From the NCBI GenBank assembly GCA_900095095.1, contig FMBT01000037.1, positions 1 to 49,991 on the forward strand: a DNA stretch of 49,991 bases, in the 5' to 3' direction. The notes under the pieces were generated by a model. The model worked only from the letters and a program-made list of their open reading frames with translations, was not told the DNA's origin and did no database searches. The DNA is from Fragilariopsis cylindrus CCMP1102 (Eukaryota; Bacillariophyta; Bacillariophyceae; Bacillariales; Bacillariaceae). The first letter of the stretch is position 1. The number at the start of each line of letters is the position of its first letter. Made by a program: the position numbers and the translations under genes. This document shows, one piece after another, positions 24,182 to 40,451 of the stretch.

Positions 24182-24362
24182 AGTCAAGGAGTGTTAAAGC
24201 TGTAAAAAGGAATCAAGCGATTTATTTTTATACAACGCGCGCGCTAGTAGAAAAATCAAAGTCCAGAAGAGAAATCTATTCTGGACTCATTCTTTTGGAA
24301 ACATCGTGTTTTGTTGTGAGGCAGCTCCGGAGCTGACGTGACCGCTGAAAGCGCTTCTTCTT
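24182..24362 (+). repeat. Retroelement A repeat, left copy (A1)
   Basis: 181 bp, identical to 34034-34214. It contains two hairpin-forming inverted repeats: GTCCAGAA/TTCTGGAC around a 10-nt loop, and the perfect palindrome CAGCTCCGGAGCTG. It also has a CGCGCGCG run. This is the left terminus of the element. Confidence 0.95.
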
Positions 24363-25482
24363 GGACTACCCGTCCGCTCAATGGAGACAAGACAACAACA
24401 GAGACCACCACATGGAAAACAACAAAGACATGGAGCGCAGCATCCACGGAAACACTCCGGACGACATCGTTGCCCTCATCACAAACATGCAACGAATACA
24501 AGCCGTGTTGATACAGAATTTTGGCAACGAATCGCCACAGGCCACCGAAATCAAGCGCCTGCTTGCGGCCATGTATGAAAAACACAATTACCCAACTCCG
24601 GAGTAATAGGAATGGCGTCAACTAGACGAAACACCCGGTTACGACGAAACGCCTCGTAAAGAGACAACTACATTTCACAAGTCAAAACTAAATCTTTACC
24701 ATTTCCAACCAAATGTTCGCCGCGCACGCAATGTCGCACGACAGACGAATACACCCACACAGACAGACTGCATGCAACACCACAGGTTTTAGATCCAAAA
24801 AGGGATTCCGGACCTCAACGTACAACGGTCAAAGTCAGGAGCACGACACGCATACCATGCCACGTGCCCACACATTAAAAACGAAAAACATCTTAAATAA
24901 TAGACAAGTCCAAATATAAGAATATAATATAACGTTAAATCACATAATACATTCAAATTTTGTCAGGACTCAACCGTTCAACGAAACTAGTTAGCACCCC
25001 TGCACGCACCCTCGCATGCGTCACTCCTAGCTGTCAAATTTTCAACTCCGGAATTGAATTTTTCGATTTCAGGCACACATAAGCCCAGAACACAATACAT
25101 AGGTACATAAGTAATTTATTCACACTTCCTATTTGCCTTATCCCTCGTTGGGACAAAAACAAAATAACATTCAACAATATTTCACGTAATTATTCACCAA
25201 CGTAATGGGGCTCACCCTAACTAAACAACATCGTTTAGGACGACTTCCACCCTTTGTCAACATAGATTCTGAACAATAACGGCGACTCCATGCCAATCGC
25301 ATGCCATTCAGGCTCACCACATCACTGACCAAACGTCAGTTCCGGACGTCAAACGCCCGAAAAACATAAATTTCCACATTTGGCACTATTCCGGAACACA
25401 TTGTTTCGGCACACAACACTCTCACAATCTCAACTTCGAGCAACTCAAAACCGCTCGCAGCCAGGATTTAAACATCAGCACG
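24363..25482 (+). other. Retroelement 5' leader
   Basis: Over 1.1 kb between A1 and the Gag-like ORF. It contains the small ORF at 24412-24606 (listed separately), then about 870 bases with no supported gene. Leader length and C/A-rich composition resemble the inter-ORF regions of the element rather than host DNA. Confidence 0.7.
24412..24606 (+). CDS. Small leader ORF, diverged copy of an internal Gag-like segment
   Basis: A 64-residue ORF from the first in-frame ATG. About 50 residues (the ERSIHGNTPDDIVALITNMQ block and the block ending RLLAAMYEK) align without gaps worth noting to the Gag-like protein at nt 27304-27465 (ERSIPGTPQIPDTIDALITNL and RLLDALFDN). DNA similarity is also visible, for example GAGCGCAGCATCC at both places. 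So a Gag segment was duplicated into the leader and has diverged. It may be a small regulatory or RNA-binding product, a transduced fragment, or a remnant. Expression is unknown. Confidence 0.55.
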   Translation: MENNKDMERSIHGNTPDDIVALITNMQRIQAVLIQNFGNESPQATEIKRLLAAMYEKHNYPTPE

Positions 25483-28065
25483 ATGGCGTTCACAGAGGGA
25501 GGATTTCAAACAGCAATCCTCGATGAGGCAACCCGGGCCAAAGAGTCGAACTCCAGAAGCCAACTCATCACCCACCCACTCACTTTCAACAGGACCACTC
25601 ACCTACCGGACCAAGCGTTGTTCTGCGGAATCGGAACCTTGGGAGTTGCAGTGTTAAACACTCAACCGAAGAAGGTCACCCCCATTTTATGGGTACGAGC
25701 TTACCAAACACAACGTTTTGGTATCACAATCACATCATGCCCACAGGCAGTGATATTCGATGCCAACGACCTAGTGGCATCGGACGTCTGGATTGCGAAA
25801 GATGCCGACTCAACTGCGAATCAGGGCTTGGACTATGTCACGAGCGCTCTGATCAAGCAACGACCCATGATGAAACTAATCCCAATCCGGGCTGAAACCA
25901 TCACGGATTTCTTCAATGCCGACAATTCTCACAAAAGCGTCCGCGACTTAATAACAATGTTCAAAAGCAGAACCGACAAACATGACAAATTCGTTTATAG
26001 CTGGCTTCGTGCAGCAGCAATGGTCAGGGATACTACCCTCCCCAACAACGCCGACAGCACCAGTCAAATGCAACTAGAACCGGACCAACCACGTTGGTTC
26101 ACACTTGCACATTCGGTGGATATTTACAAGGACCTACAGACGGGTTTCAGCGAAGACGACAATACACTTGGCACCGCCATCGCCAATGGAGTCCTGAACT
26201 GCCTCAGCAAGGAGTTCCGCCCGACCCCAGCACCGGAAGACGTCATTGACGTCGACGATGAAACACTTCTGCGCAATAATCGTCAGCGCACAGGAAATGC
26301 TCCAGGAGAAACTGCAACCAACGAGGCTAATCTCAATGCGGTACTACAACGAAATGTCCAACTCGAGGAGCAACTAGCGCAACAGCAACGCATCGCAGCA
26401 GCATTGGCCAGACAACATCAAAGTACCAGGACAGCAACAGGCAACGTCTCCTTCGAAGGCGACGGACTGCCATATGGAACCGGGCACCCAGTTTCATCCG
26501 AAAGACCCGAAAGGACCGGACTACCATTTGACATCGCGGCCAACCCGTTCGAAGGCAACGGTTTTAGCAACGACTCATCGTCAACGTTCCAACAACCGGC
26601 AGCCAGGTCCCACAATCCGTACGGCACACCGGGCGCCACCAACCCATTTGGTGAACCCACTCCGGGTCACCCAGGGTATCATGGTGCACCGGCTTTCACC
26701 TTTGGAGCATCGGCAAGCAATGGGGCTTTCAGTTTTGGGGGTCACACGGGTGCATCACCTCACCAAAGTATTGGTGATCACCTACATGCAATGCTCAACA
26801 GAGGCCCAGGCCTTCCCCTCACCTCCGAGGACATGAACCGATTTCAAGTGCTCAAGTTTCTTGCAGCGGAATCCAAGAGTCACCCAAACTCGACCAAGCC
26901 GGACCAACCAAAAAAGGCAAAGGACAGTATGGGCACCAGATCGTGGAATTTATGTGGATGGGCACATCTACAACCACACGAGCTCCATTTTTTGCACCGG
27001 TGCAACAACAGCGGTTGGTTGAAATACAACAAGGCTCCTGACAAAGGCGAAAAGGACTCCGTCATTGACACCTACTTCATTCAACCAATGATCAAGAAGA
27101 ATCCCCGTTTCCGCCAAATCATCACGGCCGAATTTCGGAAATCTATCACGGATTGGCGTCTAGCCCCAACGAACTTCGAAGGCACCAAACCCCATGGGGG
27201 GCTTGGCCCTCTCACTTACGTCACCAGGTCGACGGCCGAGAGAGAGAGACTCGAAAGTGTTCGCGCTCTCAACGCACAATGCGTACCAACGTCAGCCGAC
27301 ATAGAGCGCAGCATCCCAGGAACGCCACAGATTCCGGACACCATCGATGCCCTAATCACCAACCTGCAATTAACTCAACTAGGTTTAATACAGGTAATTG
27401 GCGACAGAGCGCCACCGTCAATTCAACTCCAGCGCCTGCTCGATGCCCTGTTCGACAACTACAGTCGTCTATCCGCCATAGCCAACTTCCGGGCTCTAAT
27501 CAGCAACGAAATTATTTACCAACTGTGCCGCCATCTTGAGCGGTATTTCGGCGTCTTTTGCACAGCAGAAGACGTAGCCGCCAAGCGTTTCCCGAAGTTC
27601 AACATCGATTTTCTCATCCTGGGTATCGAAAACAACAACTTGTCCTTGTCGCACAGCTACGGTCCAATTTTCCTTCCAGCGAAGACTCCGGCAACGCCGC
27701 GACCCAGCCCTCCAACACCTACAGACCGGAATACAGACCGGAAGCGAAATGCTGACAAATCACCAAAGAAGGACAAACCTACAACACGCAAGGGTCCGGG
27801 ATGCGACGCCATCAGAAAACTAATCGCGGACCACCGCGCAACACATGACGGCAACTTCCCCCGCCTCTCGGACATCCGGACTGCCAACGAGTTCGGATCG
27901 ACGAAAGAAATGTGCGAGGCCCTAGGCCTCAAATCGAGTAATTGTCTCAACTATGGGCTTTTTTGCTACTGCAACGGAAAATGCAAGAACACCCACCAGT
28001 CCGATTTCAGCGCTTATAAACCGGACAAGGCCATCGAGATGTTAAAAAAGGCCACCACCATGTAA
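25483..28065 (+). CDS. Gag-like structural protein of the retroelement (ORF1)
   Basis: An intact 860-residue ORF in the first position of the element, where DIRS-type elements encode Gag. Visible parts: an N-terminal folded region (about residues 1-250); a short Gln-rich coiled coil (about 285-313); a Gly/Pro/Phe-rich disordered region (about 335-430) with repeated FG dipeptides, including NPFG, FTFG and FSFG; a folded region with two WXXX-type motifs; the segment duplicated in the leader (about 608-660); a basic Pro/Lys-rich linker; and a C-terminal Cys/His cluster (CLNYGLFCYCNGKCKNTH) that could bind zinc and nucleic acid, though it is not a canonical CCHC knuckle. I do not recognise the N-terminal fold by name. 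Assignment rests on position, size and the basic/Cys-rich tail. Confidence 0.75.
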   Translation: MAFTEGGFQTAILDEATRAKESNSRSQLITHPLTFNRTTHLPDQALFCGIGTLGVAVLNTQPKKVTPILWVRAYQTQRFGITITSCPQAVIFDANDLVASDVWIAKDADSTANQGLDYVTSALIKQRPMMKLIPIRAETITDFFNADNSHKSVRDLITMFKSRTDKHDKFVYSWLRAAAMVRDTTLPNNADSTSQMQLEPDQPRWFTLAHSVDIYKDLQTGFSEDDNTLGTAIANGVLNCLSKEFRPTPAPEDVIDVDDETLLRNNRQRTGNAPGETATNEANLNAVLQRNVQLEEQLAQQQRIAAALARQHQSTRTATGNVSFEGDGLPYGTGHPVSSERPERTGLPFDIAANPFEGNGFSNDSSSTFQQPAARSHNPYGTPGATNPFGEPTPGHPGYHGAPAFTFGASASNGAFSFGGHTGASPHQSIGDHLHAMLNRGPGLPLTSEDMNRFQVLKFLAAESKSHPNSTKPDQPKKAKDSMGTRSWNLCGWAHLQPHELHFLHRCNNSGWLKYNKAPDKGEKDSVIDTYFIQPMIKKNPRFRQIITAEFRKSITDWRLAPTNFEGTKPHGGLGPLTYVTRSTAERERLESVRALNAQCVPTSADIERSIPGTPQIPDTIDALITNLQLTQLGLIQVIGDRAPPSIQLQRLLDALFDNYSRLSAIANFRALISNEIIYQLCRHLERYFGVFCTAEDVAAKRFPKFNIDFLILGIENNNLSLSHSYGPIFLPAKTPATPRPSPPTPTDRNTDRKRNADKSPKKDKPTTRKGPGCDAIRKLIADHRATHDGNFPRLSDIRTANEFGSTKEMCEALGLKSSNCLNYGLFCYCNGKCKNTHQSDFSAYKPDKAIEMLKKATTM

Positions 28066-28400
28066 GCAACAACCAATAACCGCCAGTAGCGAGTATACAG
28101 TAATTAAGTAATAACTATAAAACAATCTATGTTAATTTTCATATATAATTTTCTCATTACCATCACCTGCTATAATGTTTCTCCAACCCCAGCGTACCGC
28201 CTAGGTTCACACTCCCGAGTGTGCCACACCCGCGGTTCACACTACCGAGTATACCACCACCACCTCGTTCGCCATGCCGTCCAGACACTCCGTACAGGAC
28301 ACCGTATTGTCGACCGATCCCTCCACCGCCCCGACGACAACCAGTCGACGACAATGCGTTTACTCCAACCCAAAGTAAGTTACCACAATTCAAAGGTTTA

Positions 28401-30685
28401 ATGTTTCCTCGTCATGAAGTTTTAAATCACCCAGCAGGTCCGGATCTGCTAGAATACGCACTCGAAGGCTGCCCAGTCGACTGCGGCGATGATTGGACTC
28501 TGGAGCGCCTAGAATTAGCAATCGCGAGTGGAGCACACTCCAGTGCGAACGTACCCGAAGCAGCAGCCGCATGCAAAAAGGAAGCCCTCGAACGCGTCAC
28601 GGAGGGCTCCTGTCGCCTCGTCAATTGGGAGGACATCAAACATGATTTCCCCCCAAATCTAAAAATTTCACCACTAGCTGCAGTACCGCACAAGTCCGCG
28701 TCTATCGGATGATCCTAGACTTATCCTTCCAGCTCCTCGTCAACGGAAAGAAGCTGGACTCAGTAAACAGTGCGTCCGACAAATCATTGGCAAAACAAGA
28801 ATCAATGTACGAACTAGGGAACGTTATCCCCAGAATCATATGGGCAATGGCTCTGTCGAAAGACAAAACGACACCTTTTATGTTCTCAAAAGTAGATTTA
28901 AAGGATGGCTACTGGCGAATGGCAGTCAGCGAAAAAGATGCATGGAATTTTGCATACGTCCTACCAGGAGCAGGCCCGGACGACCCGGTACAACTCGTTA
29001 TCCCGGACGCCCTCCAGATGGGCTGGAGCGAAAGCCCGCCTTTCTTCTGCGCCGCAACCGAAACGGCACGCGACATCATCAACGACAAGATGCGACATGA
29101 CGTCATCATCGACGAGCAACCGATGGAAAACATCATGATGGACATCGATTGGACCAAGATCAACAAACTTCACACTCCAATCGACTCGGAAACTGATAAA
29201 CGGACGTTCCTTCAACTCATCGAGGTCTACATCGACGATTTCATCGGCGTAATCCAGAGCACCAACGAAGCCGATCTACTCCAGTTTTCACGTCGCATCC
29301 TCGACGGCATCACCAAGGTATTTCCGCCTCCGGAATTGTCCGGAAGCAAGATGGCACATCCGGTCTCGGAAAAGAAGCTTTTCGAGGACGGAATCTGGGA
29401 CACCAGGAAAGAAATCCTAGGTTGGCTCTTCGATGGAATCTCACGCACCATCGAACTGCCACAACGTAAATGCGAAGAACTCCTTACCGAACTCAAGGCG
29501 ATACGCCGCAAAGACAAGATTGAAGTAAAACGTTTCCAAAAACTTCATGGACGACTACAATTCGCGACCATTGCCATACCATGTGGCAAACCAATCCTGG
29601 GACAACTAAATTGTTACATGGCCGCAGCTGCCAAAAACCAGGGTCGAAAAATCGAAGTAACAAACGACTTCGCAAACATCCTCCGGGATTGGTCAGCACT
29701 CATCCGTCTAGTCGGACGACGACCAACACATGTCTCCGAACTCATCGAACATCCACCATCTTATCAAGGCTTCGTAGATGCATCCAAATGGGGAGTCGGT
29801 GGAGTCTGGTTCAGCGGCACAACGACCGTCGTCCCGATCGTATGGTTCTTCGAGTGGCCGCAAGAAATACGAGACCAGTTTTGCTCGTCATCCAACAAAA
29901 GCGGGCAACTCACGATATCAGATTTAGAACTAACCGGAATACTCATGCACTGGCTTGTTCTCGAGCACAGCGTGGACCCAATTACACTCCGGGGCGTCAG
30001 CGTCTCAATCTGGTGCGACAACCTCCCGGCAGTAGCGTGGATGTACAAATTCAGAACGAGCACATCATTGGTCGCAGCACGAATCCTCCGAGCCATGGCG
30101 GTACGCCTGCACACCAACAGAACAGCATTACTCTCAGTGGAACACATCTCCGGCATTTACAACAAAATGGCAGACGTTGCATCCCGCAAACATAGTCTCG
30201 ACAATGCTACATTCCTCACCGACTTTTCCGCTCATTTTCCCCCACCACAGGACGAATCCTGGACTCTGTTCCTCCTCAGCAACAAAGTTACGTCAAAAGT
30301 CTCTTCGGAGCTGCTACAGAAGCAATCGACTTTGGAGTCGTGGCGTCGACTACCAACGAAAGAATACGTTTTTGGAAAGCTTGGACCCACTACCTCGCCA
30401 TTTACTTTCCTACCTATGACGAAAAACTCAGTACACTTACTCAACAAGACAAAATCGAAGTGCTGGTCAGTTTCGCCCAACATGTGCGATCCGGAGGCGT
30501 TTCACGACAAAAACAACAAGTTCGTGCGCAAACAGTCCAAGTATCGCTTCGGGCCATCACAGCGCGTTTCGAGATGGACGGAGAACAAAGTCCGGTGGTT
30601 AACACGCAAGGAAAATATTATAAAAAAATCGGCCAACTTATTGAGGGCTACCGACGAACCGACCCCCCTGCCAAATTCAAATTAG
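28401..30685 (+). CDS. Reverse transcriptase/RNase H of the retroelement (ORF2), one frame break
   Basis: The N-terminal part lies in the frame ending at 28712; the first ATG there is 28401, and the frame is open back to 28221 without an ATG. The main frame runs from the ATG at 28709 to 30685. The conserved DIRS-type RT entry (AAVPHKS then YRMILDLSFQLLVNG) is split exactly across the two frames, so the domain is continuous only with a shift near 28695-28708; one missing C in the CC at 28696-28697 would explain it. The stop and start overlap as ATGA. In the main frame (numbered from 28709) the RT has the KVDLKDGYWR segment and the catalytic VYIDDF at residues 173-178. The RNase H has its four acidic positions D357, E407, D437 and D489. 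The 3' end overlaps the recombinase frame for about 490 bases. Confidence 0.9.
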
Positions 30686-31446
30686 CAGTACCAATCAGTG
30701 TCCCAAGATACATGTATCACTACGCGTTAACAGGCACCGAAAAACAAAAGGCAGTGGCAGATATAGCCATCATCGCTTTCTACTATCTCCTCCGAGTCGG
30801 AGAGTACACGTACACTCCGACCTCAACCAAAAAGCTAACACAAGCTTTCAGACTCCAGGACGTCACATTATGGGACAAGAATACCATCCTCGACCATAAC
30901 CTCCCAATCGACGCCCTTTTAATCAGATGCACAGCAGCAACTCTTCGAATATCGAATCAGAAAAATGGCAAACGAAACCAGGCAATACACCATTTTACAA
31001 CAAATACGGATACATGCCCAATAAAAGCACTAATTAGAAGAGTCAAGCACATCACTGCTCACACTTCAGTCCCGACTGCTATAATTAGCACGTATTTCGA
31101 ACACCCGACTCACCAGGGCAAAGTAATGCGCGCAACCGAAATTAACTCCGCGCTCAAAGCAGCAGTACTCCAACTCGACATGAAAAAACACGGGTTTGAA
31201 GCAGCGCAAATAAGCTCACACAGCTTACGCGCAGGAGGGGCGATGGCGATGCACCTACACAACACCCCAACACACACGATTCGAAAAATGGGACGCTGGA
31301 GCAGCGACACTTTTCTCGACTACATCCACGAACAGATCGCTGTTTTTTCAGCCGGCCTGTCAACAGCGATGGGCAAGAACATTTTCTTCCATAACATAGG
31401 CTTTCGCGCCATCCCGACCCCTATTTTAGACAACGAAGATACTTAA
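30196..31446 (+). CDS. Tyrosine recombinase of the retroelement (ORF3)
   Basis: Open frame 30196-31446; the family-like N-terminal segment begins before the GTG at 30340 (around 30247), and no ATG lies at its head, so it may be expressed by frameshifting from the RT frame or from a spliced RNA. Numbering from 30340, catalytic residues are visible: Arg152 in LLRVGE, the HSLR box at 294-297 (His294, Arg297), Trp320 in GRWSS, and nucleophile Tyr328 in LDYIHEQ. A core-binding domain precedes them with an RIRFWKAW helix. It should recombine a circular cDNA with the target without target-site duplication, in keeping with the AGT-only junctions. The catalytic set is complete, so it may be active. 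Confidence 0.92.
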   Translation, partial: SRQCYIPHRLFRSFSPTTGRILDSVPPQQQSYVKSLFGAATEAIDFGVVASTTNERIRFWKAWTHYLAIYFPTYDEKLSTLTQQDKIEVLVSFAQHVRSGGVSRQKQQVRAQTVQVSLRAITARFEMDGEQSPVVNTQGKYYKKIGQLIEGYRRTDPPAKFKLAVPISVPRYMYHYALTGTEKQKAVADIAIIAFYYLLRVGEYTYTPTSTKKLTQAFRLQDVTLWDKNTILDHNLPIDALLIRCTAATLRISNQKNGKRNQAIHHFTTNTDTCPIKALIRRVKHITAHTSVPTAIISTYFEHPTHQGKVMRATEINSALKAAVLQLDMKKHGFEAAQISSHSLRAGGAMAMHLHNTPTHTIRKMGRWSSDTFLDYIHEQIAVFSAGLSTAMGKNIFFHNIGFRAIPTPILDNEDT

Positions 31447-31596
31447 TTAATATAAAAACAAACATTTACCCTAACTAATTTGCTCACAACTAGTCGCGCT
31501 CAAAACCACTGAGCTACCGAATACAACTTTCACGACGCCCTTATTTTATTTTCGCATATAATCTCCTGTTTGAGTTATAAATCCGTTACCAATCTA

Positions 31597-33442
31597 ATGC
31601 TAGAACAAATAGAAACAACCGTTTCAACTCTGCCCACAAGGCCAGATCCGTTGCATAAACATACAACGGTTAGCAACACAACGGACTCTCCATCCACTCA
31701 AAAACTTGTAACAATGAAAAACCTGAACTCAAACTTGACCCCAGGACACAAAAGAAAACTAGACGTTTCTAAACCAACAACGCAACACATTGTCGCGACT
31801 AATACGCAACCGATTTTAACACAACAAAATATACTCGATAGTTACACAAATCTACTTTGGTACAACTCACCAGCAATAGCACACAAATTCTATTTCGAAC
31901 AAAACAAAAAGGCAAATTGCACCATAGCGCTTTCAACTCAATCTAGTATGAAGTTTGACATTCCCACTTTCACCGCCCTCGACGATGATACGTACTTCGA
32001 ACTTGCTTCGTTACTCACCCGTAAATGTTGTACCCAGGTCACCAAGGAACACCTCGGGGACGTGGACTACAAGTTAGCCGAGGAACGAGACAACAGAGCT
32101 ACTATCGAACCTGATGCGAAACGCATCAAAAACGAACAGCTCCCCGGCACATTCTATGCCAAGATCGCCAAGGCTATCAGCACCACCAACGTCATGGTCG
32201 TCGCAATGGACATGACACTCCAGCATTACAGAGCACAGGAACACATCAGCAAACTACAAACTGCTAACAGTGAACTCCAGGCTGTCGATCTCACGGACGA
32301 GACCGGCAAGAGTGTCATCGAAACACTTCCGGATCTAGTCGACAAGGGAGTCATCATTCCCGACAAGAAACGTGCAGCAACAGTCGCAACACTTCCGGAA
32401 CACGTCGACAATGGTGTCGTCGTTACCGACAAGAAACGTGCAGCAACAATCACCGTAAATCCGCACTTGCAAGCTTTCGCACTGGGTTAATGGCCGAAGT
32501 ACGGTCAGAAAATGCACGACTAGCCAACAATGTCACTCCGAACGATAAACCTATCGATCAGGCACCTGTCAAAAAGCCCACCGCTAGAAGACGATTGTAT
32601 CAATTGTTCGAGTGGGACGGCCTAGCAACACACAACTTAATCACAGCATTTCAAATGCCCAGGCAATGAAACGTTCAGGACCGTCTTCCCCAACATGAAA
32701 CCGGAGCCACCAATCCTTTCATGCCTACCAAAGGACAACCCGCGAGCATCGTTAGAAACAGCGCTCGCGCTTGTGGGAGCATCCGTACCATCTCATTGGC
32801 TCGACAGGGTATTTCTACCCGACTACACCAAGCATGACACGCCCATCTCGGTCATCTTCAACGAAACAATGCAGCGGAACGATTCGCCTACAAAGATTAC
32901 GACGCAGCAGTAATCGAACATGGTCTCAGTCCAGGCATTGCAGATTGTTTCAAAGGCCAGAATGCTGGCAACTTCGCGGAGAAGGCTGTTTCACAACCAC
33001 CGCTCCTCTCTTGTGCCAAATGGAAATCAAGGGAATCAGGTACAAGCATCAAGGGCAAAGTTACCAATGGCTTATCTACATTCCACATATGAACGTAGTA
33101 ATCTCTTGCAACAACCACAAACCACCCAGCTCCACGTATTAAAGAAGCAGAAAAACGTCTGGATCCTCGGCAAAACACGATCAAAGCATTGACCGAAGAG
33201 GACAGCAGCAGCATCAACAAGCTCCTGGGCAAGTTAGCGTTTCCAGCAAAGATGACAACGCCCAAAACCTCGCTTACACAGCGCAGTCTGGATTCAAAAC
33301 ATCAATTCCAACTTCAACCTTGTCGACGAGTCAACGAAGATTAGAAATGTTTGATATACCGCACCATGGCCAGAGTCGTGCTACCACAATAGCACTCCTG
33401 ACTCAACCATTCCGACATCCATCTACACCGAACAAATCGTAG
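31597..33442 (+). pseudogene. Fourth ORF of the retroelement, unknown function, frame broken about six times
   Basis: The first part (31597-32490, 297 residues from the first ATG) is open. It has a coiled-coil-like stretch and a 22-residue tandem repeat near its end (DNA 32323-32388 and 32389-32454, ending in DKKRAAT). Beyond its stop, protein-like sequence continues in changing frames to a stop at 33440-33442. Examples are QLFEWDGLATHNLITAF, then NETFRTVFPNMKPEPPIL, then a segment with SHWLDRVFLPDY, AAERFAYKDYDAAVIEHG, YQWLIYIPHMNVVISC, RIKEAEKRLDPRQNT, and a tail with RRLEMFDIPHHGQSR. Shifts fall near 32480, 32650, 32865, 33000-33060, 33100-33130 and 33250, of both signs. I see no hydrolase or DNA methyltransferase, the extra domains known in Ngaro and DIRS1/PAT. 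The short ORF at 32490-32665 begins at a TAATG stop/start overlap. Confidence 0.55.
32323..32454 (+). repeat. 66-bp tandem duplication in the fourth ORF
   Basis: Two in-frame copies of a 66-bp unit (22 residues), 32323-32388 and 32389-32454. Both contain ACACTTCCGGA at the start and GACAAGAAACGTGCAGCAACA near the end, with several substitutions between copies. Confidence 0.85.
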
Positions 33443-33767
33443 ACTCCAGGATCACGCCTATACAATCACGACGTATCCAACGAACATCTTGTTAAAGGTT
33501 CTGTACCACAACGAACCAACAATTTAACTATACATATATAAAGAAAAGAGAATAATCAGTAGTTAACTAATAATCGTAACTTTCACCGAAGCTACAACTA
33601 GGTTGCAACACACAATATTTCATTCTCAACTTTCACATTAGCTACACTAATACTAGAGTCTCACTCCCGTGCACATAGCCTGGCCTAACACACCCACGCT
33701 ATGACCGGAAGTCATTTCAACATTCCACACATTTATGGGACTATACCCAACTAAAGTTGGTTTGATG
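33443..33767 (+). other. Retroelement 3' region before B1
   Basis: About 325 bases between the last protein-like sequence and B1. No gene. It contains a TATATAAAG-like string near 33536-33543 whose role is unknown. Confidence 0.5.
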
Positions 33768-34036
33768 GAGGAAGCTCTTTTAGTATCTTTAGTGGCTAGT
33801 GAACCCCGGAACACAAGTGGTCCGGAATACACAATCCACCAAAAATAGGTCACATCAGTTCAGTCCCGAGTTAGCCACGACTGACAACAATCAACCTCTT
33901 TTGACGAAACTATATACACTTAGATAGATCCAGAAAAACGTGTTCAACAAAACCGAGGTAAGCCAGAAGAATGATTCACAATAATTACTTTAGTCGCATA
34001 GCAACTCCGGCTAAATTTAGTGCAACTAAATTTAGT
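33768..34036 (+). repeat. Retroelement B repeat, internal copy (B1)
   Basis: 269 bp, identical to 34236-34504. It ends in two copies of the palindrome CTAAATTTAG separated by TGCAA, then T. Its last three bases (AGT) are shared with the start of A2. Confidence 0.95.
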
Positions 34037-34214
34037 CAAGGAGTGTTAAAGCTGTAAAAAGGAATCAAGCGATTTATTTTTATACAACGCGCGCGCTAGT
34101 AGAAAAATCAAAGTCCAGAAGAGAAATCTATTCTGGACTCATTCTTTTGGAAACATCGTGTTTTGTTGTGAGGCAGCTCCGGAGCTGACGTGACCGCTGA
34201 AAGCGCTTCTTCTT
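34034..34214 (+). repeat. Retroelement A repeat, internal copy (A2)
   Basis: 181 bp, identical to A1 at 24182-24362. It directly follows B1 with a 3-bp AGT overlap, so B1-A2 reproduces the junction expected when the element ends are joined in a circle. Confidence 0.95.
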
Positions 34215-34235
34215 CCACAACCATCCTCACTCCTA

Positions 34236-34504
34236 GAGGAAGCTCTTTTAGTATCTTTAGTGGCTAGTGAACCCCGGAACACAAGTGGTCCGGAATACAC
34301 AATCCACCAAAAATAGGTCACATCAGTTCAGTCCCGAGTTAGCCACGACTGACAACAATCAACCTCTTTTGACGAAACTATATACACTTAGATAGATCCA
34401 GAAAAACGTGTTCAACAAAACCGAGGTAAGCCAGAAGAATGATTCACAATAATTACTTTAGTCGCATAGCAACTCCGGCTAAATTTAGTGCAACTAAATT
34501 TAGT
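34236..34504 (+). repeat. Retroelement B repeat, right terminal copy (B2)
   Basis: 269 bp, identical to B1. It is separated from A2 by 21 bp and ends at the right terminus, 77 bp before the stop codon of the methyltransferase gene. Confidence 0.95.
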
Positions 34505-36285: not shown

Positions 36286-37565
36286 GTTGTAGTGCTTGTA
36301 TGAGATATAGAGTATCGATGATGGAGGCTACTACTAGCTAGCTAGCTACTGTACTAACGTTAGCAGGCGATTATAATGTTCCGCATGTGAATGTTGTGCA
36401 TATTATTCATTATTTTCTGCACACTGCACAATTCTTAATTCAAAGTTTTATCTGTGAATGTTTATGGTTCTCGTGCGTCGTTCTCTCTTGATCTCGATTC
36501 GTGATCTAACTCTACATGACTGTACATAATAATGCTAATGCAAAGAATAGTAACCAAAACCACCATATCTAACTTATTGCAACAGCAACAACCATACATA
36601 GTTTAGATATGAAGTATGATAGCAGTACCAATGATAAGCTTCTCTCAGCTAATTTGTTGTTCGCAGGATGGGGCTGCCCATTATTATTGAGCTCCTCTCC
36701 TCCGCCTCCTGAACCCCCCTCGTAAAATATACCCCCTTAAATTGTTTTGTCATTATTGATCTTCCTTCTCGCAAAAATGAGCCTATAGTGTACCAGCAAT
36801 ATGTATATTTCATAGATACGTGTGTCATCTTTAGGCATGAGAGCAGCTTTAATGATGGCCCGGTGTACCTTAATCAAGAGATTGCTTCTTTTTCTGTTCT
36901 GCTGCTGCTAGCTGCTGCTGCTGTGCACAACGGCACATCTCCAACTTTTTAAGGACATACAGTTTGATAGTGTGAGATTGAAGTAAGAGTTCATGGCATG
37001 ATATATCAGGTTGTGGCAAAGGAATCTAATTCCAACCCTGATTGACATGACATTGCTTGCACACAGACTTTGAAGAAGACCTCTACTACAAATATTACTA
37101 TCTAATGATAGTCCGCGAATTGCTCACACAATATCAAAAAAACACAACGCTGCTAACGTTAACTTACTATCTCAACTACAAGTATGGAATGAAAGAATCT
37201 GAAACGGAAAAGGGCTCATATAATTGCTCGCACCACTTTACCTTCGCGTTCACTTGATTCGGCGTCAAATTCACGTAGCTCCGATTTTAAGGGTTATAGA
37301 GGCTTTAGTGCGTAAGTTTGCGTTCGCTGGAGGAAGTACCTTCTTTAGTGATAATAATTACACCGGGTAGAGAAAACTGAATGGATACTATATTATGATC
37401 TATGACTTCATTATTTATTTTGTCATTCATTATTTATTGATACTAGTAACCCCATATCGACTAAGTTACTGTATGTCATACTTGTAAATCAAGAATAGAA
37501 CGAATAACGCAGCATCAGCAGCCGTGAATAAAGAGACTACAACAAAAAAGGTAACAACAACGACG
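36286..37565. other. divergent intergenic region with dispersed repeat copy
   Basis: It carries the promoter of the methyltransferase gene (minus) and of the glycosyltransferase gene (plus). It contains short CTAG/AGCT runs (near 36333-36347), a CTG/GCT-rich tract (36898-36922) and repeat copy 37106-37245. A small open frame at 37057-37257 overlaps that repeat and is not supported as a gene. Confidence 0.5.
37106..37245 (+). repeat. Dispersed repeat, copy 1
   Basis: About 140 bp nearly identical to 40104-40225. The shared start is TGATAGTCCGCGAATTGCTC and the shared end is CACTTTAC. This copy contains about 18 extra bases near 37173-37190. Both copies have the same orientation and flank the glycosyltransferase gene. 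No terminal inverted repeat or ORF was recognised. Confidence 0.9.
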
Positions 37566-39670: not shown

Positions 39671-40451
39671 TGAGATAAAATAAAATACGAAAATAAAATA
39701 TAGGTATTAATACTACCTAGCTAGTAGCTAGTATGAATAAAAGGAATAATACTAACACTGCTAATTACGATTGCTATACATACTACCATACTTTCATACC
39801 ATATATAATACCTTACCAAACTAGAATTACAGTATATATATACATATTTACTCATTAATGAACAATAAAGAAAACAAAACATATTTGCATATGTACAGTA
39901 CACTACTTCAATATACGAACACATATACTAATATTATATTATAATATGGTGCATGATCTATATTATGTACAGTGTACTTGTAGACTAAGTATGAAACGAT
40001 AGTACAATTATATTGAGGCACATTACAGTATATTAGATGTAGTATTACTATTTGAATATCCACATCCTCTATTTTTAATATTAGTCGGTTAACAAATTAG
40101 TAGTGATAGTCCGCGAATTGCTCACACAATATCAAAAAAACACAACGCTGCTAACGTTAACTTACTATCTGAAAGAATCTGAAACGGAAAAGGGCATATA
40201 TTATTGCTCGCGCCACTTTACGTTCAGTATGACTCATTGTAAATAATGAGAGCATATGCGTTGTACTTCACATAATTTGGCCGCGGTAATCCGATCTGTG
40301 TATCTCATTCATTTTCTATCATCTACTAGCTTCTAGTAGCTACATCTATTCCTCTAAGATAATATTGCTTGTTATTATGCAATACATTGTAACGACGAAC
40401 ATGGGCATCCCTCATGTATAAGATCACAATTCTCTATCACCAACAGTAATC
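39671..40451. other. intergenic spacer with dispersed repeat copy
   Basis: AT-rich, with many TACAGTA/TATATA strings. It contains repeat copy 40104-40225 and then the promoter of the C2-like gene. No supported gene. Confidence 0.55.
40104..40225 (+). repeat. Dispersed repeat, copy 2
   Basis: About 122 bp nearly identical to 37106-37245, lacking an internal 18-base segment and with a few substitutions towards the 3' end. Confidence 0.9.

Follow-up and report, generated by a model that had tools for sequence, protein, structure and literature searches.

The window analyzed here, a stretch of 49,991 nucleotides from the diatom Fragilariopsis cylindrus CCMP1102 (contig FMBT01000037.1, or C349, of a 67.9-Mb assembly in 818 contigs), carries on its forward strand an element of about 10.3 kb (24182–34504), in which four open reading frames (ORFs) are framed by split direct repeats in the layout A1-ORFs-B1-A2-B2. 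This element is very probably one copy of a recently active tyrosine recombinase (YR) retrotransposon family with a Ngaro-like architecture, in which ORF4, the frame that follows the YR gene, is a cassette exchanged between copies, probably by template switching. The family is a new one of a known kind, and the new part is that near-identical copies carry alternative forms of the post-YR ORF that have diverged deeply. No description of such an exchange among near-identical YR elements was found in the open-access literature, including the parts consulted of PMC3783388, PMC9210276, PMC6338049, and PMC8547959.

Divergent Versions of ORF4 in a Near-Identical Backbone

At least three versions of ORF4, types I, II, and III, were found in almost identical backbones. 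The type I cassette of the window spans 31513–33355 on the forward strand, with a frame of 325 amino acids (aa) at 31513–32490; its end is approximate and was taken over from copies in which the frame is open. When 250-bp bins were compared with the window, 11 copies were mostly 97–100% identical outside ORF4, and the low bins seen upstream in C81 (66, 66, and 80%) and C209 (60%) were taken for indel or edge effects. Type I is carried by the window, C398, C260, C209, and C298, and type II, with ORF4 bins about 40–62% identical to the window, by C81, C324, C166, C282, C340, and C471, as well as by C562, a copy at a contig end. Type III was found in C299 (bins 60–85%). At the protein level, types I and II share 41–43% identity, and types I and III 68% over the C-terminal 422 codons. 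Between types, the proportion of synonymous differences (pS) exceeds that of nonsynonymous differences (pN), with an omega of about 0.36–0.43, which argues that ORF4 is selected as a protein.

Between the window (type I) and C340 (type II), we counted a single substitution in about 2.7 kb upstream of ORF4 and none in about 0.97 kb downstream, and no site in these two regions was fixed between types I and II across 12 copies (C562 and C156 were dropped as incomplete). A further pair, C209 (type I) and C81 (type II), shows 11 differences over the 2047 bp that lead up to the YR stop codon and 954 differing alignment columns overall; the divergence starts 77 nt past this stop codon and thins out 417–154 bp before B1. 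The type III backbone is further away, by 39–59 substitutions per about 2.7 kb. With its divergent versions in a near-identical backbone, ORF4 thus behaves as an exchangeable cassette.

Scans of ORF4 against Pfam and NCBIfam gave no match over any cut-off, hydrolases included, and its profile matched only CviR among PDB sequences (E 0.2 and 0.37). A trehalose-phosphatase, suggested by one weak match far under the cut-off (E 0.045), was rejected, and so was an envelope protein, as there is no clear membrane segment (maximum hydropathy of 1.19 in type I and of 1.90 in type II, the latter in a low-complexity stretch). No ORF4 relatives were found on viral contigs by a search that reaches close relatives only. 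A protein database search gave one match (76% over 61% of the query); the query was the 325-aa frame of the window, so that only proteins of about 179–569 aa were candidates, and full-length ORF4 relatives (577–586 aa from the Met) fall outside this range, so no conclusion on rarity is drawn.

A second subfamily in the genome, 55–58% related, has an ORF of its own of about 500 aa at the same place. Homology between this ORF and ORF4 is not claimed (hhalign E 0.013, but a probability of 3.3%). In one member of this subfamily (L093, C81:419100–422300), with ORFs at 141–1652 and 1804–2448, the sequence coding for the C-terminal 215 aa of the ORF4 analogue is present in two copies, so that the 3′ end of the gene appears to lie within the B repeat of this subfamily.

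Repeats and Ends of the Element

The A1-ORFs-B1-A2-B2 layout had been put forward in a preliminary description of this DNA, and it was confirmed base by base. The two 181-bp A copies (A1, 24182–24362; A2, 34034–34214) and the two 269-bp B copies (B1, 33768–34036; B2, 34236–34504) are exact and all lie on the forward strand; a 21-bp spacer (34215–34235) separates A2 from B2, and B1 and A2 have the AGT at 34034–34036 in common. The two pairs were among the three exact direct repeats of at least 40 bp that a direct-repeat search detected in the window. A search for inverted pairs of at least 20 nt found no long terminal inverted repeat inside 24182–34504, the four pairs detected being two self-palindromes, one in A and one in B, and two 20-nt pairs at 75%. 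A scan of the element against Rfam gave no match.

The copy-invariant 5′ end of the element begins at T 24184 (TCAAGG), and the copy-invariant 3′ end in B2 (...AAATTTAG) stops at 34503. The outer 5′ end was T|CAAGG in 18 of 18 anchored loci with about 13 distinct flanks, some loci sharing flanks; 19 loci had been tried, and C66 was dropped for want of an anchor. The outer 3′ end was AAATTTAG| in all 15 cases read, followed by T in 10, C in four, and A in one. In this survey, the outer end of C298 lay outside the stretch taken, C166 and C562 share their right flank, and three opposite-strand matches with three mismatches (L011, L012, and L013) were dropped. The AGT found at both ends of the window copy partly belongs to the target, only the left T and the right AG being constant across copies. 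Inside the element, the joint between B1 and A2 was AAATTTAGTCAAGG in 13 of 13 full 3′ blocks and contains an internal copy of the joined ends (...AAATTTAG|TCAAGG...). As the internal joint and the outer ends are both constant, the B1-A2 joint corresponds to the sequence made by joining both ends of the element.

A self-complementary stretch of 25 nt lies at the 3′ end of the element on the forward strand (34479–34503) and also in B1 (34011–34035); our guess is that these palindromic stretches could be YR-binding arms or hairpins. Self-complementary stretches were also observed within the A repeats (24260–24287 and 34112–34139), and these could likewise be recombinase-binding arms or hairpins.

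Genomic Copies and Empty Sites

The 737-bp B1-A2-B2 block was found over at least 728 bases at 99–100% identity in 13 genomic places, the window included; this number is a lower bound, as 40 matches were scored. The repeat arrangement is thus not due to chance. Among the 16 A1 copies listed at 97–98% identity, 11 have a 3′ block about 9.5–10.2 kb away on their contig. The genome-wide search for further copies and solo repeats that had been proposed in the preliminary description yielded at least 12 other 3′ blocks, together with solo A-B repeats at two places, C90 (100%) and C103 (95%).

Empty sites were searched for with 12 joined flank pairs. C182 is the empty site of the window copy: the alignment crosses the junction (query 55–140) with no target duplication, and C182 is syntenic with the window on both sides of the site (left side, 99% identical along 3.2 kb; right side, 98% along 4 kb). 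Judging from these alignments, an insertion present on one haplotype and absent from the other would most simply account for C182, and the recent insertion suggested earlier by the identical repeats is borne out by this syntenic contig without the element. The solo repeat of C90 has its empty site in C174, again with no target duplication. Both flanks of C398 are joined in C405, with 31 bases added. In C356, the left flank of C209 (88%) is followed without duplication by the right flank of C471 (95%) (L065, L021, and L072), the flanks of two copies being exchanged, by the assembler or in nature. The left flanks of C299 and C398 are 99.7% identical over 1.5 kb, and their right flanks differ (L026, L025; L018, L012). 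We also observed the same 300-bp left flank (99.7–100%) in C260, C298, C553, C505, and C156 (L062, L061, L060, L067, and L070); the A1 of C156 is only 93% like the query.

Reverse Transcriptase, RNase H, and Tyrosine Recombinase

ORF1 (25273–28065, forward strand) is a gag-like stop-to-stop frame of 930 aa with a C-terminal Cys/His-rich stretch starting at 27943. It is 99–100% identical in several copies and 23–29% identical in distant in-genome relatives, and had no Pfam match over the cut-off; its position suggests a gag gene. Between ORF1 and ORF2, the sequence at 28176–28400 is CT-rich, reads as proline-rich repeats, and is likely to be prone to indels.

ORF2 (28401–30685, forward strand; 761 aa in close relatives) encodes the reverse transcriptase (RT) and RNase H. 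ORF3 (30196–31446, forward strand), a frame of 416 aa encoding the YR, opens just past the last RNase H motif (30170) and overlaps ORF2 by 490 nt in another frame. The active-site residues are present in all three domains (D and YIDD for RT; D/E/D/D for RNase H; R, K, HxxR, GRW, and Y for YR), so that the full catalytic residues claimed for the YR in the preliminary description are in place. The Pfam model RVT_1 was found in 17 of the 40 family members scanned and missed the other 23; the protein of the window was not matched. In a predicted model of a relative (P0126, pLDDT 83.4), the top Foldseek matches were retroviral RTs, with the Ty3 RT at rank 23. The YR profile had no match among PDB sequences, unlike the YR fold search, which gave the match. 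RT/RNase H and YR are both supported by family assignment, by fold, and by their active sites. Among the element ORFs scanned with Pfam, none matched a DDE integrase, and a methyltransferase match was likewise absent when the window ORFs and 40 RT homologues were scanned with Pfam, a profile search only; the earlier statement that a recognised methyltransferase or hydrolase is lacking holds at the level of profile matches.

In nine stretches around the RT (L029–L037, the window included), a single frame of 836 aa was found in four, and gag and RT are fused in one. At C81:430778–436057, the gag-like and RT sequences are continuous in an ORF of 1760 aa.

The coding of the RT/YR overlap was analyzed by comparison with a relative in C523. 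In both frames of the overlap, the pS was 0.44, compared with 0.73 for the body of the RT and 0.67 for that of the YR, and the pN remained at 0.29–0.33 throughout the RT body, the YR body, and the overlap. The unused third frame of the overlap contains stops in both sequences (pS 0.30, pN 0.34). With a second relative (C81:416k), the effect was somewhat weaker (0.47/0.51 in the overlap against 0.73/0.66 in the bodies). The drop in pS at a level pN suggests that the RT and YR proteins are both likely to be real, and the 490-nt overlap is thus likely to code in both frames. A frameshift was considered for YR expression and rejected, as the two overlapping slippery heptamers, in one A-run at 30622, are too far downstream. 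In the window, a CTG stands at the point where several homologues start with Met, about which we make no claim.

Homologues in metagenomes numbered 923 for the YR and at least 748 for the RT. The RT and YR member sets comprised 39 and 35, respectively, of the 120 listed for each, hand-picked for spread, plus the window's own. Among the matches listed, the nearest YR homologues with a named organism are Nitzschia inconspicua proteins (44–46%), in agreement with the diatom host proposed earlier. YR matches were also found at eight loci on viral contigs (26–45%). Distant YR-like frames (24–29%) were observed at C593:41284, C184:663942, C762:4390, and C106:5458, and may belong to other YR elements or to Cryptons.

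Proposed Cycle and Exchange of ORF4

In a cycle that follows the model published for split repeats, the ORF2 product would reverse transcribe an RNA extending from A1 across the internal B1-A2 block, and B1-A2 would provide the sequence that the two ends form when joined. This would give a circle with AAATTTAG|TCAAGG at its junction, which the YR would recombine into a host site, requiring little of the target sequence and leaving no target duplication. As for the ORF4 cassette, of about 1.9 kb, its exchange would most likely, and most economically, result from switches of template between related, divergent RNAs while they are reverse transcribed. As a guess, the ORF4 product could be an accessory protein under fast evolution, involved in dealing with either the host or the target.

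Several observations weigh against this reading. Transcription, reverse transcription, and the circle are steps that we infer, the element being known here from genomic DNA alone, and the Ngaro-like placement is proposed from architecture. The first ATG of the YR frame is codon 127, codons 1–126 containing none. No donor backbone for the cassette was found, and backbone site 860 is incompatible with a single split between types I and II; among 18 informative upstream sites, 29 of the 153 pairs violate the four-gamete test, and both this and the conflict at site 860 are expected if copies recombine. At C182, identity falls to 81% in the 218 bases matched next to the site on its left, a match that leaves out the last 35 bases before the site, and the two sequences differ in length by about 210 bp at 250–300 bp left of the site. 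The exchanged flanks (C209/C471 in C356, and C299/C398) indicate that the assembly may be wrong around the repeat. Finally, two frames of the window copy are broken: ORF2 breaks inside 28646–28712, giving the pieces 28176–28712 and 28646–30685, and ORF4 stops at 325 aa, where eight of 13 anchored copies have one frame of 600–614 aa. The element had been described as complete, and this stands for its structure, A1, B1, A2, and B2 all being present, but not for its coding capacity, with the RT split and ORF4 reduced to 325 aa.

These frame breaks may be real mutations or sequencing errors. Between RNase H and B1 (4.4 kb), the window and C209 differ by six substitutions and 15 one-base indels, against 11 substitutions and one longer indel between C260 and C209. 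A like excess of indels was observed between C471 and C81 (15 indels, 41 substitutions). An excess of one-base indels is the pattern of residual long-read errors, and the breaks in the RT and ORF4 frames of the window are probably such errors. The F. cylindrus FALCON assembly is described as built from PacBio reads with a read N50 of 8 kb and polished with Quiver, with 59.7 Mb of primary and 9.1 Mb of alternate sequence (PMC5634323).

The main rival to template switching, which we regard as possible but rather doubtful, is that ORF4 was exchanged by ectopic gene conversion or crossing-over between genomic copies. Many near-identical copies are indeed present in the genome, their flanks appear to be exchanged unless the assembly is in error, and the four-gamete violations point in the same direction. 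However, among the best candidates, no genomic donor has a divergent backbone around a type II ORF4, except the remote C354. In addition, a long tract, of about 1.9 kb, has been replaced between flanking sequences that are near-identical, which does not decide between this process and template switching.

It is unlikely that the element is PAT-like or belongs to a separate lineage rather than being Ngaro-like. PAT has the same repeat layout, Ngaro elements are usually without ORF overlaps according to PMC3266345, the 10.3 kb of the element exceed the approximately 6 kb of the Cafeteria Ngaro-like elements, and its RT is often missed by Pfam. On the other hand, no methyltransferase was detected, the YR lies 3′ of RT/RNase H in the same orientation, and both a post-YR ORF and overlapping ORFs are reported in Xenopus Ngaro (PMC9210276).

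An origin of the versions in two or three older families with different ORF4 genes, the rest of which was later homogenised by concerted evolution, appears improbable. It would fit the almost invariant repeats and RT/YR region, and also the distance of the type III backbone given above. It would, however, require conversion to halt at the same borders, C81 and C324 both diverging from 77 nt past the YR stop codon, and no remnant of a divergent type II backbone was seen.

That the cassette pattern is an artefact of assembling a 10-kb repeat is hardly credible: PacBio reads with Quiver polishing (by inference from PMC5634323), the one-base indels between the window and C209, and the flank exchanges would be in its favour, but both types occur on many contigs (five for type I and seven for type II counting C562, whose right flank is that of C166), the same YR and B1 flank each of them within 2.4 kb, a distance under the reported read N50, and the divergence between types I and II is that of ordinary coding sequence.

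With exchange by template switching as the preferred reading, we tentatively suggest that ORF4 might be a modular determinant of host interaction, silencing escape, or target choice, exchanged by recombination during reverse transcription. If this were true, one expanding backbone would carry alternative, deeply diverged versions of a gene, much as viruses exchange surface or specificity genes. In Cafeteria burkhardae, the loss of another ORF, ORF1, is reported to go with a changed integration preference (PMC8547959), which shows that targeting can depend on accessory components of elements of this kind. The ORF4 cassette thereby offers a natural experiment, the same engine with an alternative accessory gene, that bears on the role of post-YR ORFs and on recombination between elements. 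YR retrotransposons are among the less understood retroelements, and a young multi-copy diatom family with mapped ends, empty sites, and open frames makes the circle-integration cycle testable. As the Pfam RT model misses more than half of the members scanned, such elements may be under-annotated.

Two observations concern the surroundings of the element. The third exact direct repeat of the window, of 67 bp (37106–37172 = 40104–40170), has its copies 3 kb apart near a glycosyltransferase-like ORF, and a neighbouring gene contains a VDE domain.

Comparison with Known Elements

The combination of RT/RNase H and YR in one element, and insertion without target-site duplication (C182, C174, and C356), place the element in the DIRS order, and the split direct repeats A1-ORFs-B1-A2-B2 are those of both Ngaro-like and PAT-like elements, as the preliminary description had proposed. 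In stramenopiles, 15 Ngaro and five PAT-like families are reported in Ectocarpus (PMC12477816), Ngaro-like types 1–4 of about 6 kb in Cafeteria burkhardae (PMC8547959), and 14 DIRS copies are tabulated for Phaeodactylum (PMC5859163).

With DIRS1-like elements, the element shares RT/RNase H, YR, the absence of target-site duplication, a 3-bp circular junction, and a long ORF overlap, the last seen in half of the 28 elements in PMC3266345. Unlike it, these elements have inverted terminal repeats, internal complementary regions, and a methyltransferase domain, and no terminal inverted pair was detected here. VIPER-like elements (VIPER, TATE) have the split-repeat layout in some copies and no methyltransferase (PMC6681497, PMC3266345). 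By their description they differ in coming from kinetoplastids, with a YR near Crypton and an RNase H near hepadnaviruses in published trees (PMC6681497). PAT-like elements (PAT, kangaroo, TOC) are YR retroelements with split direct repeats; PAT is, however, described as close to DIRS1-like elements, with a YR region that is sometimes inverted (PMC3266345, PMC6681497), and neither a methyltransferase nor such an inversion was found here.

The likeness to Ngaro-like elements extends to the A1-[ORFs]-B1-A2-B2 layout, the order gag-like, RT/RNase H, YR, the lack of a methyltransferase, and the solo A-B repeats (PMC8547959). The element departs from them in its length of 10.3 kb, in an RT that RVT_1 usually misses, and in a post-YR ORF without a hydrolase match that exists in several divergent versions. 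Vertebrate Ngaro elements have an SGNH hydrolase ORF after the YR, which ORF4 does not match, but not all Ngaro elements have this hydrolase. The Xenopus Ngaro-like elements DIRS-53_XT/54_XT resemble the present one in having an additional ORF after the YR, there with a hydrolase domain, and overlapping ORFs (PMC9210276). An extra ORF in this position is therefore by itself no mark of a new lineage, and we rejected it as a novelty in itself. ORF overlaps, usually absent in Ngaro according to one source (PMC3266345) and present in Xenopus Ngaro according to another (PMC9210276), are called frequent in YR elements (PMC6681497), so the 490-nt RT/YR overlap is not new either.

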